A stretch of DNA of 7,979 bases from Candidatus Dormiibacterota bacterium (GTDB lineage Bacteria; Chloroflexota; Dormibacteria; UBA8260; Bog-877), in contig PLTL01000340.1 in NCBI GenBank assembly GCA_003164475.1, forward strand, positions 1 through 7,979, read 5' to 3'. This document shows, piece after piece, positions 3,117 through 7,071 of the stretch (positions are counted from its first letter, which is position 1; every line of letters begins with the position of its first letter). The position numbers and the translations under genes were made by a program. Under the pieces are notes generated by a model. The model was not told where the DNA came from. It saw nothing but the letters and a program-made list of their open reading frames with translations, and did not search any database.

Positions 3117-4136
3117 CTACTGGACCGCCGGCTGGCTCAGATCTGAACTGGGCTGGTCCGCGCTGTCGGCCGTGCTCTTGCGCCGCCGTCCCCTGCCGCC
3201 GCGCCGCCGCCTTCGCGCTGGCCGCTCTGGCCCGCCCGCAACCGCACCTCCGGCCGGGCGCTTCGCCGCCGGAGTCGGCGCAGCGGCGACTGCGCGTCGA
3301 GGACGGGGCTTGGGAGCGAGCCGGGGAATCGGCGGCATCCCCACCGCCAGGAGGTCGCCCAGATTCCGCCACCCGAACCGTTCCTGGCCGATCTGGACCA
3401 GCTTCACGAAGCAGTCGGCGGTGGCCTCCGAGTCGGCCAAGGCGAAGTGGGGGCTTCGGTGGGTTACCCCAAGCTGCTCGCAGAGCCGTTCCAGCCCGAT
3501 CGTGTCCCTCAGCTCGAACAGGAACCCGGCGATCCGGGAGGTGTCCAGGTGGTGGTGGGGCAACGGTCGCCCGAGTGCCCGGGAGACGAGGCGGGTGTCG
3601 AACCCGTCGGCGCTGTGCTCGACCAGGACCGTGCCGCGGGCCAGCTCGTCGAAGGCGGTGGCGACCCGGCGTAGGGTGGGGGCGCCGCTCAGCATGGAGG
3701 CGTGGATGCCATGGACGCGGCGCGCGTAGGGGTTGATGTGGTCCTCGGTGTGAACCAGGCTCTCCAAGGAGAGGCGGGGCTGGGAAGGACGGCCGGGCGC
3801 TCCCAGTTGAAAGCGGACCGCTCCCAACTCGACCATCCGGTGCGGGAAGTGACCGGTCGTCTCGCAGTCCAGGGCCACGAAGCCGAGGTCCTCGAGTTGG
3901 GTCTCGTCGCTGGGCCATTCGCCGGGGCGGTCCACCCCCAGCTCACGGTCGGCCAGAAGCGCCAGCTGATCGGGATTGTGAAAGGGGGCTGCCTCCGGGG
4001 AGACCGGGCCTAGCCTAGCCACCAGCCGGTCGCCGGGAGCTCCAATTCCACGTTCCCGGCCCCGCCTGACGCGGGGGCCATTTGTGGGGGAGGGCGCCTG
4101 CAGGTCGGGCGCAGGCTCCTGGGGTGGGCGGTCCAC
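3117..4136 (-). CDS. DEDDh-family 3'-5' exonuclease (DnaQ / DNA polymerase III epsilon-like)
   Basis: A 339-residue protein with a central exonuclease domain (about residues 85-255). Motif I is FVALDCETTG (D90, E92). Motif II is VEHSADGFDTRL (D180). Motif III is HFALADSEATADCF (H230, D235). Together these give the two-metal Asp-Glu-Asp-Asp set plus the His of the DEDDh subclass, which removes nucleotides from 3' ends of DNA or RNA. Motif II has HSADGFD where a HNxxFD form is more usual. The N-terminal ~75 residues are Pro/Arg-rich and the last ~70 are low-complexity Ala/Pro followed by a strongly basic tract (RRRRRGGRGRRRK), which probably binds nucleic acid. The extensions distinguish it from the compact E. 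coli DnaQ, so a repair or RNA-processing exonuclease is as likely as a replicative proofreader. The GTG start has an AGGA about 9 bases upstream; further upstream starts are possible because the frame stays open. It converges on prfA with an 18-base gap that includes a run of eight G and no clear terminator. Confidence 0.85.
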   Translation of the reverse strand: MDRPPQEPAPDLQAPSPTNGPRVRRGRERGIGAPGDRLVARLGPVSPEAAPFHNPDQLALLADRELGVDRPGEWPSDETQLEDLGFVALDCETTGHFPHRMVELGAVRFQLGAPGRPSQPRLSLESLVHTEDHINPYARRVHGIHASMLSGAPTLRRVATAFDELARGTVLVEHSADGFDTRLVSRALGRPLPHHHLDTSRIAGFLFELRDTIGLERLCEQLGVTHRSPHFALADSEATADCFVKLVQIGQERFGWRNLGDLLAVGMPPIPRLAPKPRPRRAVAAAPTPAAKRPAGGAVAGGPERPARRRRRGGRGRRRKSTADSADQPSSDLSQPAVQ

Positions 4137-4244
4137 CGCCCCATCCTAATCCCGGAAGTGGGGAGCGCACCCGCGCCGGGTGGGCCATCTGATCTCCTGC
4201 TGAAGTGAGGCATCGGGACCCGACCAGGGTTTCCCCTCTGCGCG

Positions 4245-4493
4245 GTGGGTGCCCGGAAGCGGTTCCCCGGCCTCTGGACAACGGCCAGGGCAGGGATCGC
4301 CGTGCTTGCCCCACGATCGGACCGAGCCGGAGAGCAGCTCCGCGCTGGCCCCGGAGCGGGCCTGCCCGGCTTGGGCCTGGACTGCGTCGGCGTCCCGACA
4401 TTCAGCGCGTTTGGACGCTTGCGCGCCCGCCCGGAGTGCGGCCTCTGTGGGGCTGGTGGGCCGTGGCCACATCTCGTCGCCCTAGCGCCTTAG
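4245..4493 (+). pseudogene. Possible decayed uroporphyrinogen-III synthase (hemD-like) fragment
   Basis: An 82-codon frame (GTG start) contains AVLAPRSDRAGEQLRAG and, after a Gly/Pro-rich stretch, LGLDCVGVPTF. This follows the HemD pattern of a strand ending in xxxR, an Ala/Leu-rich helix (xxAxxL), then a Gly-hydrophobic strand ending in VP (compare the RVLLPRSxxAxxxLPxGLRxLGAEVDVVPxY style segment). Known HemD proteins are about 250 residues, and nothing resembling the rest follows here. Codon third-position bias is weaker than in neighbouring genes, which fits decay. The position, 63 bases before a hemB fragment on the same strand, matches the hemD-hemB order common in actinobacteria, and that is the main support. 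The similarity is short and judged by eye; it could be chance. Confidence 0.25.
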
Positions 4494-4556
4494 GTCGGGA
4501 CCTGGCGACGCCTTCCGGGCGCCGGCCCCTCGGGTGCGGGAGAATGGGCGCCAGCC

Positions 4557-4889
4557 ATGAGCTCTCCCGAGGCGCGACTTCGCCCGATCCGCCGTACCCC
4601 CGCTCTGCGCCAAGGGGTCCGAGGGGATGGCCTCTCACTGGCCGGTCTGCTGCCGGCCGTCTTCACCAGCGACGCCGTGGGCATCTTGCCAGGCATGCCA
4701 ACCGTGCCCGGTGCGTTTCCGGCGAGCTTGGGCTCGCTCGTGCCGATCGCCGATCGGACAGCGGACTTGGGGGTCTCCGGCCTGGCCCTCTTCGTGATTC
4801 CAGCCCATGAGGGCCCCTACGGGTCCCTGGCCGGGGGCGAGGAGAGGGTGGGCCAGACGGAGTCGCGGTGGCTCCAGGAGGTTGCATGA
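4557..4889 (+). pseudogene. hemB: N-terminal fragment of porphobilinogen synthase (delta-aminolevulinate dehydratase, HemB), truncated
   Basis: The 110-residue product matches the HemB N-terminus along its whole length. RLRPIRRTPALRQGV (7-21) corresponds to the family's RPRRLRxTPALRxLV. LSLAGLLPAVF (27-36, plus neighbours) fits the LSPxDLxxPLFV segment, LPGMPTVPGAF fits IxSMPGVYR, ADLGVSGLALFVIP (69-82) fits the AxxLGIxxxxLFGIP strand, and GSLAGGEERVGQ (89-100) fits GSEAWxxDGxVQ. Intact HemB is about 325 residues and condenses two 5-aminolevulinate molecules into porphobilinogen. This frame stops just before the Cys-rich metal site and lacks both active-site lysines, so it cannot be a working synthase alone. 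The frame is nonetheless open, with G/C-rich third positions, and its TGA overlaps the ATG at 4886 (ATGA) of the cyclophilin, suggesting coupling. GGGAGA lies 13 bases before the ATG. It is either a remnant kept as a coupled leader or a small protein with a new role. Confidence 0.6.
4876..4881 (+). promoter_or_regulatory. Strong ribosome binding site before the cyclophilin start
   Basis: AGGAGG is 4 bases before the ATG at 4886 and 7 bases before the ATG at 4889. The spacing favours 4889. The site lies inside the last codons of the hemB fragment, so translation of the fragment would pass over it. Confidence 0.7.
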
Positions 4890-5578
4890 TGGGCTCCGAT
4901 CTCTGGCGGCGGGGCGGAACGGTGCTTGCAGTGCTCCTGGTCGCCGGGGTGGTCGGCGTCGGCGCCTTCTTCATCAATGTGGCCGCGACTAGGAGGACCT
5001 CAGCTGTGTCTGCCGCAGATTGCGCCGGAGCCAACTTCAGTGACCCCCTCGGACCTCTGGACCAGCCCAAGGCGGTGCACCACTATTCCAAGGAGCCGGC
5101 CTTCACGATCGACACCCAGCGACTCTACGAGGCCACCATCTCCGGGCCCAGGGGGGACATCGTAATCTGCCTGGTCCCCGGATGGGCCCCGGTCACCGTC
5201 AACAACTTCGTCACCCTTGCCCGCAACCACTACTTCGACGGTCTGCTCTGGGCCCGTGACCCCTCCACCTCGCCGGGTGGGCCCGTCATCCAGGGTGGCA
5301 GCCCCAACAACAACCTCACCGGGGGTCCTGGCTACCTCTTCAAGGACGAGAAGGTCGTTAGCCCGCTGTACAAGGGCAGCGCCTACAAGGCGGGGGCGGT
5401 GGCGATGGCCAACGCCGGACCCAACACCAACGGCAGCCAGTTCTTCATCACGCTCTCGTCCTTCTCCCTGTCGCCCGACTACAACCTCTTCGGGGAGGTC
5501 GTCTCCGGGCTCGACGTTGCCGGGAAGATCCGGAAGGGCGACCAGATGCACGTCACTGTCCGAGAGCAGCTGCCCTAA
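4889..5578 (+). CDS. Membrane-anchored cyclophilin-type peptidyl-prolyl cis-trans isomerase
   Basis: The 229-residue product has a short positive N-terminus (WRRGG), a single hydrophobic segment at about residues 10-30 that is a membrane anchor or uncleaved signal, a linker, then a cyclophilin domain from about residue 80 to the end. The domain should lie outside the cytoplasmic membrane and help fold exported proteins by proline isomerisation. Visible family features are APVTVNNFVTLARNHYFDGL, the catalytic Arg (R123, in LLWAR), IQGGSP (Q135), TGGPGYLFKDE, AGAVAMANAGPNTNGSQFFI (F185, F186) and the closing YNLFGEVVSGLDV. Two points are unusual: between R123 and Q135 there are 12 steps instead of the usual 8, with a Ser/Thr/Pro/Gly insert, and the position of the hydrophobic Phe before the IQGG motif is Pro (P132). 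The ATG at 4889 is chosen over 4886 and over the GTG at 4868 because of Shine-Dalgarno spacing. Confidence 0.9.
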   Translation: MGSDLWRRGGTVLAVLLVAGVVGVGAFFINVAATRRTSAVSAADCAGANFSDPLGPLDQPKAVHHYSKEPAFTIDTQRLYEATISGPRGDIVICLVPGWAPVTVNNFVTLARNHYFDGLLWARDPSTSPGGPVIQGGSPNNNLTGGPGYLFKDEKVVSPLYKGSAYKAGAVAMANAGPNTNGSQFFITLSSFSLSPDYNLFGEVVSGLDVAGKIRKGDQMHVTVREQLP

Positions 5579-6348
5579 CCGACCCAGTCCCCTCAGCCTG
5601 GTCTGGACGACGACTGTGGGGCGGGCGTGGCCCACGCCGACCGGGGTGTTGAGCGGCTCGTGGCGCTCGGCCCCAGCGGTGGATGGCACGCAGCAGGGCC
5701 TGGTGGCTTCGCCGGCTCGGGTCCTGTTCGTTATCGGGGGCAGCCGCCACCTGGACACGGTGCTAGCCTGAGGCCCCCGATTCTGAGCCCGCCCCGCCGC
5801 ACGGGGGTCGGGGTGGTCTGAAGCTGGCTGGAGATGGGGGGCCGACCACGGCTACTCCGAGGCCGAAGTGGAGCTCGCCGAGACGGTCCACCGACGGCCG
5901 CTGCGCCTGCCCCCGGCGGTGCCCTACTTCCCTGCGGCCGCGGGGATGCGCCCGATCGGGGGCTTCTTCCTCCCCCTGAAGGTGACAGCCGTGTCTGGGG
6001 CAGCCCTCGCACCGCCGGTTCCCGTGTGGCAGACCCGGCCCTCTCGGCCAACCACGAGGCGACTTCGCGGGTCAGTCCCACGTGGCCCCGACTGCCTCAT
6101 CCCCCCGGCCGGACTCGGCTTACCATCCCCTTTCCGGTGCCAGCTTGGAGATTCCGCCGGTGCTCGGCGTCCTGGGTACCGCCAGGATCGACGCCAGCGC
6201 CAGCTGCAGCACTGCGACTGGCCGGCAATTCCCATAATGGCCCCTGGTGACACTGGCGGTCACCACTTCATCCTGCCTGCCTCTTGGCGGTGTCTATCCG
6301 GCTCCATGGGGGACCCATCCTGCTCATCGACCACCGGCGGGCCCACTG
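5579..6348 (+). other. Long stretch without a convincing intact gene
   Basis: About 770 bases between the cyclophilin and rph. Frames are open on both strands, as expected at this GC content, but their products are rich in Pro, Arg and Ser and look like shadows. One short plus-strand stretch near 5840-5925 reads GADHGYSEAEVELAETVHRRPLRLPP, broken here as GADHGYSEAEVELAE followed by TVHRRPLRLPP. It faintly resembles the GPEGGFSEAEVELAE...PVRLGP end of RsmE 16S rRNA methyltransferases, but the Gly-Pro-Glu-Gly-Gly and LRTETA motifs are not preserved. A tight inverted repeat (GGCGTGG at 5624-5630, CCACGCC at 5632-5638) has no T-run after it, so it is not a standard terminator. No gene call is justified. 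Confidence 0.5.
6233..6265 (+). promoter_or_regulatory. Possible rph promoter -10 with adjacent inverted repeat
   Basis: CATAAT at 6233-6238 is a five-of-six match to the -10 consensus in a very GC-rich context; a -35 is not clear (CTGCGA at 6212-6217 is a weak candidate). Just downstream TGGTGAC (6245-6251) and GTCACCA (6259-6265) form perfect 7-base inverted arms around a 7-base centre, at the expected transcription start. This could be an operator or a 5' hairpin. The rph start codon is about 84 bases further on. Confidence 0.25.
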
Positions 6349-7071
6349 ATGGCGCGCTTCGATGGAAGGGCCGCTGGCCAGTTGCGGCCTATAGAGATCG
6401 ATACCGGAGTGCACAGCTGGGCCGAGGGGGTCGCCCTCATCACTTCCGGGTCCACCACCGTGCTCTGCACCGCCACAGTTGAGGAGAGGGTGCCCCCACA
6501 CCGGCGCGGGTCCCGGACTGGTTGGGTGACCGCCGAGTACGGGATGTTGCCGCGAGCTACCCACGAGCGCAACCCTCGGGAGCGGGCGGGCAGGGTGGAC
6601 GGCCGCTGCCAGGAGATCCAGCGGCTGGTCGGTCGCAGCCTGCGCGGGGCGGTCGACCTACGCCTTCTGGGCGAGCGCACCGTGATCATCGACTGCGATG
6701 TCATCCACGCCGATGGGGGCACCCGCACTGCCGCGATCAATGGTGGGTTCGTCGCCCTGGCTCTCGCCTGCAGGCGCCTCCAGGAAGCGGGGATGGTGAC
6801 CGCATCTCCCATAGCCCGGGGGGTGGCCGCAGTAAGCGTGGGGCTGGTTGGGGGGATCCCTCTGCTGGACCTGGACTACAGCGAGGACTCCAGGGCCGAG
6901 ACCGACATGAACCTGGTGATGAGCTCCGATGGCAGGATCATCGAGATTCAGGGCACGGCAGAGCGCGATCCCTTCAGCGAGGAGCACCTGCAGGCGCTGC
7001 TTGCCCTTGGTCGAAGCGGCGTCCCCGCGATCTGGGCGGCGCAGTCCCGGGCGCTGGAGCAGCCGCGATAG
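6349..7071 (+). CDS. rph: Ribonuclease PH
   Basis: A phosphate-dependent 3'-5' exoribonuclease that trims tRNA 3' ends, forming a hexameric ring. The 240-residue product has the full family signature: the MARFDGRAAGQLRPIEID start, HSWAEGVALITSGSTTVLCTA, GWVTAEYGMLPRATHERNPRE with the phosphate-site Arg region, GRCQEIQRLVGRSLRGAVDL, ERTVIIDCDVIHADGGTRTAA with metal/catalytic Asp residues, VAAVSVG, LDLDYSEDSRAETDMNLVM and IEIQGTAERDPFS. The length is typical. The ATG at 6349 is chosen because it aligns with the usual MxRxDGR start. The frame is open upstream to a GTG at 6247, but the extra 34 residues do not look like RNase PH. The Shine-Dalgarno is weak. rdgB follows 32 bases downstream on the same strand, the common actinobacterial pair, so co-transcription is likely. 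Confidence 0.97.
   Translation: MARFDGRAAGQLRPIEIDTGVHSWAEGVALITSGSTTVLCTATVEERVPPHRRGSRTGWVTAEYGMLPRATHERNPRERAGRVDGRCQEIQRLVGRSLRGAVDLRLLGERTVIIDCDVIHADGGTRTAAINGGFVALALACRRLQEAGMVTASPIARGVAAVSVGLVGGIPLLDLDYSEDSRAETDMNLVMSSDGRIIEIQGTAERDPFSEEHLQALLALGRSGVPAIWAAQSRALEQPR

Follow-up and report, generated by a model that had tools for sequence, protein, structure and literature searches.

Translationally coupled leader ORFs are characterized by a stop codon that overlaps or directly borders the start of the downstream gene. The N-terminal arm of HemB decides between octamer and hexamer, as described in the available part of PMC7729013. For bacterial pseudogenes the available part of a survey in Salmonella reports that in 346 of 378 curated cases a single mutation had inactivated the gene, most often a short deletion (141/346; PMC2916853). 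Here we report on a DNA stretch of 7979 bp with about 70% GC, called the window throughout, in which a short HemB-like ORF, in our view probably a gene relic, directly precedes a cyclophilin gene.

Gene order and HemB homology

The window begins with a minus-strand gene for an IPT/TIG-domain protein (PF01833, 1-1791), which runs past the left window end; its product has a hydrophobic stretch near the N-terminus and carries the IPT/TIG domain at the C-terminus. A class I peptide chain release factor on the plus strand is located between this gene and that of a minus-strand DEDDh-type exonuclease (PF00929, 3117-4136) with a long C-terminal tail rich in Arg, Pro and Ala. The intergenic stretch at 4137-4556, to which no strand is assigned, had no Pfam family above cut-off in its three plus frames; the one sub-threshold match scored 13.4 bits versus a required 27.1. 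It is followed on the plus strand by the ORF under study (4557-4889), which starts with ATG, ends with TGA and codes for 110 amino acids, and by the cyclophilin gene (PF00160, 4889-5578; ORF 4868-5578, 87.2 bits). RNase PH and a Ham1/RdgB-type protein are encoded further downstream on the same strand, and a plus-strand tRNA (RF00005, 7913-7979), whose 3' end is cut by the right window end, was the single Rfam match, with none listed by ARAGORN. Its anticodon loop, read by eye as TTTGGGA, suggests TGG (Pro). The roughly 770 bp between cyclophilin and RNase PH (5579-6348) are crossed by long ORFs, a spacing unusual for a dense genome. No Pfam match at E ≤ 1 was detectable there in the three plus frames, and the segment perhaps consists of further relics. 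Remains of the hem pathway were not seen up- or downstream of the HemB-like ORF, where six plus-frame translations gave no Pfam match above cut-off.

The product of the 110-codon ORF matched PF00490 (ALAD) with 28.1 bits and an E-value of 1.4e-6, exceeding the Pfam gathering score of 24.6 bits; its residues 6-102 corresponded to positions 2-98 of the 317 in the profile. A search of the PDB gave an ALAD as the top match (27.6 bits, E 2.7e-5), and all 14 rows named ALAD/porphobilinogen synthase. With a profile of 24 mostly proteobacterial HemBs, from which L101, a partial HemB, and L105, which is not a HemB, had been excluded, the piece scored 29.4 bits, while the top of 2000 shuffles was 2.5. 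Residues 1-45 and 46-110 each outscored 1000/1000 of their own shuffles with this profile and began in the same register with an offset of 9. The two halves are thus not offset against each other by a net indel. These data bear out an initial annotation made from the letters alone, which had described a truncated N-terminal piece of HemB, open in frame and aligned with few gaps, and had named the ALAD profile search as one of its checks.

That annotation had also claimed co-linearity from the RRTPALR region to the GSxA...VGQ region. Residues 1-83 (4557-4805) alone accounted for 27.0 of the 29.4 bits. Shorter segments were less distinctive: residues 29-70 were equalled by 24/1000 shuffles, residues 70-110 by 2/1000 and residues 84-110 (4806-4886) by 147/1000, the latter being unrecognisable in isolation. 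Judged by these profile scores the piece is HemB with confidence to about residue 83, and the remainder follows by continuity; the claimed co-linearity holds for the first part and is weak beyond. In tblastn searches of a plasmid collection that includes some chromosomes, hemB genes were hit in 24 records, 19 of them with at least 80% query coverage. The identity was 29% across 110/110 residues for a Paenibacillus hemB and 36% across residues 4-104 for one of Nonomuraea. The same method showed a 40-42% identity of 4641-4796 (residues 29-80) with a Gordonia phage major tail protein at E 0.01-0.08, with 20 Gordonia records among 27. Since both halves of the piece match HemB in one and the same register, this similarity is probably due to chance.

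In the alignment the frame stops just short of the HemB strand that bears TDxCxC, in agreement with the annotated end ahead of the metal-binding Cys and catalytic Lys part. The TDxCxC strand itself is visible in the alignments; in HemB the metal-binding Cys region and the catalytic Lys region belong to the barrel. Both regions are absent from the frame of the piece and from the window. A scan of all six frames of the window with the 24-HemB profile at E ≤ 10 gave no convincing second HemB piece, the two other matches having negative scores (E 5.1 and 8.5), and no full-length hemB with a frameshift, the finding named beforehand as speaking against the annotation. Since the metal-binding and catalytic parts are lacking in frame and window, the predicted product cannot make porphobilinogen. 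The NCBIfam equivalog cut-offs for porphobilinogen synthase were missed with 28.1 bits versus 297 for PRK09283.1 and 17.5 versus 507 for PRK13384.1. An intact enzyme was ruled out by these cut-offs, by the coverage of PF00490 and by the lack of any other HemB part in the window.

In a collection of 5.8 billion proteins the sole match at E ≤ 1e-3 among 60 word-sharing candidates was P0001, a 64-residue form of the piece starting at Met47 (4695-4889, plus strand), where the public gene call begins as well. P0001 comprises two member sequences from 34 contigs, one of which may be the contig of the window. The occurrence in 34 contigs makes an assembly error of this part unlikely; it says nothing on selection. 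A full-length HemB close to the piece was not found at E ≤ 10 among 1590 word-sharing candidates. Profile searches for short HemB N-terminal proteins yielded 3354 matches. Among the 120 listed, proteins from single contigs dominated, and those with a source name were mostly called partial. These matches look like genes at contig edges and are indistinguishable from real stand-alone pieces.

No HemB adjoined a cyclophilin in the HemB loci examined, with flanks of about 1.5-4 kb; the one cyclophilin hit, L105, had been included because of its cyclophilin. No HemB match was present in the best 80 RNase PH loci of species genomes, which came from Proteobacteria, Acidobacteria, Bacillota and others, none being named Actinobacteria, with a top identity of 60%. 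In viral contigs the piece as query produced 29 pattern matches and 0 relatives, and the cyclophilin two distant loci. Plasmid DNA similar to 4100-6400 was limited to the cyclophilin in six records that covered 2-3% of the query. A literature search, judged from the search results alone, returned no stand-alone or leader HemB piece.

Residue constraint and coding signal

Conservation was scored on the 24 HemBs, on which all of the following percentages rest. Of the columns shared by at least 90% of them the piece kept 9/15, of those at 70-90% 9/20 and of those at 50-70% 8/29. In leave-one-out comparisons every one of the 24 real HemBs retained between 13/16 and 15/15 of the uppermost class. 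The six near-invariant positions lost are R10, E23, P34, G40, M50 and K85 (numbering of the piece), with residues of the arm and of the barrel among them. Against the pooled 44/47 of three actinobacterial HemBs the value of 9/15 corresponded to a Fisher p of 0.004; the test was post hoc, and the sequences compared are related. The identity of the piece to the 24 HemBs ranged from 20.9 to 32.7% with a mean of 25.8%, below the mean identity of each real HemB to the others (35.8-49.8%). Leave-one-out profile scores were 91-138 bits for N-termini of real HemBs and 27.7-30.4 bits for the piece.

We then compared the replacements with simulated neutral drift, using an HKY-like mutation model at 72% GC and HemBs of other organisms as start sequences. 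The 17 changes at conserved columns had a mean BLOSUM62 score of -0.47. In simulations from five starts the mean was -0.45 to -0.89, and 0.11-0.58 of the runs were at least as mild. Thus the replacements at conserved columns look like neutral drift. The loss of near-invariant positions, the low identities and scores and the drift-like replacements indicate that HemB function was not what kept the piece, and the HemB-specific constraint is, as judged from these residues, relaxed.

The coding signal was evaluated with a codon model built from the six neighbouring genes. In its own frame the piece scored 0.107 bits per codon, the highest of its six frames; the other five did not exceed 0.009, and 18 intergenic frames all stayed at or below -0.001. 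Scores as low as that of the piece or lower were obtained for 14 of 121 gene windows of equal length. When gene windows were subjected to 40, 80 and 120 random substitutions drawn at the intergenic composition, the score of the piece was still attained in 66%, 39% and 13% of the runs, respectively. The signal thus appears weak but present; partial fading and an originally weak signal both fit the score.

The open frame and the cyclophilin junction

The initial annotation had conceded that a dead gene may stay open by chance at such a GC content, and the simulations agree with this. Neutral drift from three actinobacterial HemBs to 60% residue retention left 0.46-0.59 of the runs without a stop. 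Drift to the observed profile score required about 80-100 substitutions with 0.35-0.55 of the runs stop-free; on a second measure the divergence of the piece equalled 55-82 neutral substitutions. Because neutral drift leaves this fraction of runs open, the stop-free frame is no argument for translation, and the scarcity of stop codons at about 70% GC is part of the reason why the frame of the piece has stayed open.

The lack of indels is a different matter. The chance of neither stop nor indel, calculated at 60% retention for the whole 330 nt, of which no more than about 250 nt can be recognised, and for a piece that was picked for being open, was about 0.04-0.05 at 0.03 indels per substitution, about 0.007-0.01 at 0.05 and about 0.0001-0.0002 at 0.1. 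These ratios were assumed and afterwards compared with direct bacterial values of 0.10-0.36 in seven species, computed by us from Table 1 of PMC4978911, the part of that paper used here. Over about 83 codons the lack of a net indel is hard to reconcile with neutrality if indels occur at a ratio of at least 0.1, and argues against a drift that was neutral from start to end. Since the frame is without a net indel despite its divergence, it was probably still under selection for part of that divergence, or is being kept to this day.

The piece and the cyclophilin gene share a single base in the overlap TGATG (4887-4891), formed by the stop codon at 4887-4889 and the cyclophilin ATG at 4889-4891. 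The annotation is supported in that the frame is open to the cyclophilin start; the stop lies within ATGATG. The ribosome-binding-like site of the cyclophilin, AGGAGG at 4876-4881 on the plus strand, 7 nt ahead of its ATG, lies within the final codons of the piece. No site as strong as this precedes ATG 4557, where GGGAGA ends 14 nt upstream. The mean unpaired probability of AGGAGG was 0.67 and 0.62 in two narrower folding contexts and 0.20 in the widest, with a local median of 0.32, and the folding of the cyclophilin start region did not surpass that of shuffles (z 0.56, 0.82 and 0.00).

The annotation had taken the frame preserved up to the junction as a hint at translation, either as a leader for cyclophilin or as a stand-alone protein. 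We see no support for this, considering that one of three possible frames stops at an ATGATG anyway, that openness by chance is frequent, that constraint is relaxed and that the cyclophilin has a binding site of its own, for which ATG 4557 has no equal. What does favor translation is the absence of a net indel over about 83 codons, and the own frame being the best of six in coding score. Coupling of cyclophilin translation to the piece is possible and, from the features of the junction, not indicated.

Origin of the piece and comparison with known systems

Taken together, the piece is probably a truncated, decaying hemB relic. It is homologous to HemB, it is truncated, it has lost near-invariant residues and its coding signal is weakened. 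How this came about we infer as follows. A deletion or rearrangement would have taken the catalytic two thirds of hemB and left the N-terminal third beside the ribosome-binding site of the cyclophilin gene. The constraint on HemB would have been lifted then or already earlier, and the piece would have drifted, presumably without a function; part of the drift possibly took place while the copy was still full-length and no longer needed.

An unlikely alternative, and the boldest of those that would fit the data, is that the start of a dead hemB is reused as a regulatory ORF and translated as a leader, with ribosomes terminating at TGATG and re-initiating at the cyclophilin, so that the frame is selected and the residues are free. 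This would predict what is seen, i.e. a frame open to the overlap and free of net indels while residues drift as if neutral. It would also be in line with the absence of sigma-70-type promoter-like and terminator-like sites in 4100-6400 and with the cyclophilin AGGAGG being mostly paired in the widest folding context. On the other hand, that site belongs to the cyclophilin itself, has a 7-nt spacer and is more open than the local median in the narrower contexts, the cyclophilin start has no unusual folding, a GGGAGA at some distance is all that precedes the start at 4557, the ATGATG ending is a one-in-three matter of frame and the public gene call does not begin before Met47.

We consider it improbable that the piece stems from a divergent full-length HemB-like paralogue, i.e. 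a pseudoenzyme, that was truncated recently and had diverged before. Such an origin would account for the absence of indels and stops together with the low identity; yet the 1590 word-sharing candidates held no close full-length protein, and the replacement pattern is no milder than neutral. A small protein of its own, built on the HemB arm and the first barrel strands and acting e.g. by binding HemB and shifting its assembly state, is similarly improbable. What is present is just the arm with the first two strand-helix units, the 64-residue form recurs in 34 contigs, and the role of the arm in octamer versus hexamer formation, as given in the available part of PMC7729013, would suit such an activity. 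But 6/15 near-invariant positions are lost, arm and barrel residues among them, there is no relative beyond its own cluster at E ≤ 1e-3, and single-sequence AlphaFold2 gave a pLDDT of 41.5 and a pTM of 0.13, which as the output of an alignment-free model is weak evidence. Nor would three strands of a TIM barrel be expected to fold by themselves. Chance similarity or an assembly error, to which the low score of 28 bits and the weak C-terminal quarter might point, was rejected because 2000/2000 shuffles scored far lower, both halves match independently in register and the 64-residue part occurs in 34 contigs.

As a hemB relic the piece is ordinary, one more truncated gene ahead of an intact one, and it cautions that at about 70% GC a frame open up to the next start codon says little about translation. 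Should relatives have kept the frame with drifting residues, the locus would be a clear-cut example of the head of a pseudogene turned into a coupling leader. With coupled leader ORFs the locus shares the one-base stop/start overlap ahead of a downstream gene; it differs in that the cyclophilin comes with a strong Shine-Dalgarno-like site of its own and the upstream frame is only putatively translated. With HemB (PF00490) the piece has in common the order and spacing of N-terminal arm, first strand, first helix and second strand, as well as R7, R9, R12, R18, F36, P51, G72, L78 and F79. It deviates by ending before the TDxCxC strand, by having no catalytic part in frame or window and by its near-invariant losses. 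From ordinary truncated bacterial pseudogenes it is set apart by its strong divergence, during which the recognisable part has acquired neither a stop nor a net indel; such a state would be uncommon in an old relic at the ratios computed from Table 1 of PMC4978911. It resembles them in the loss of most of the ORF, the relaxed residue constraint and the weakened codon signal.
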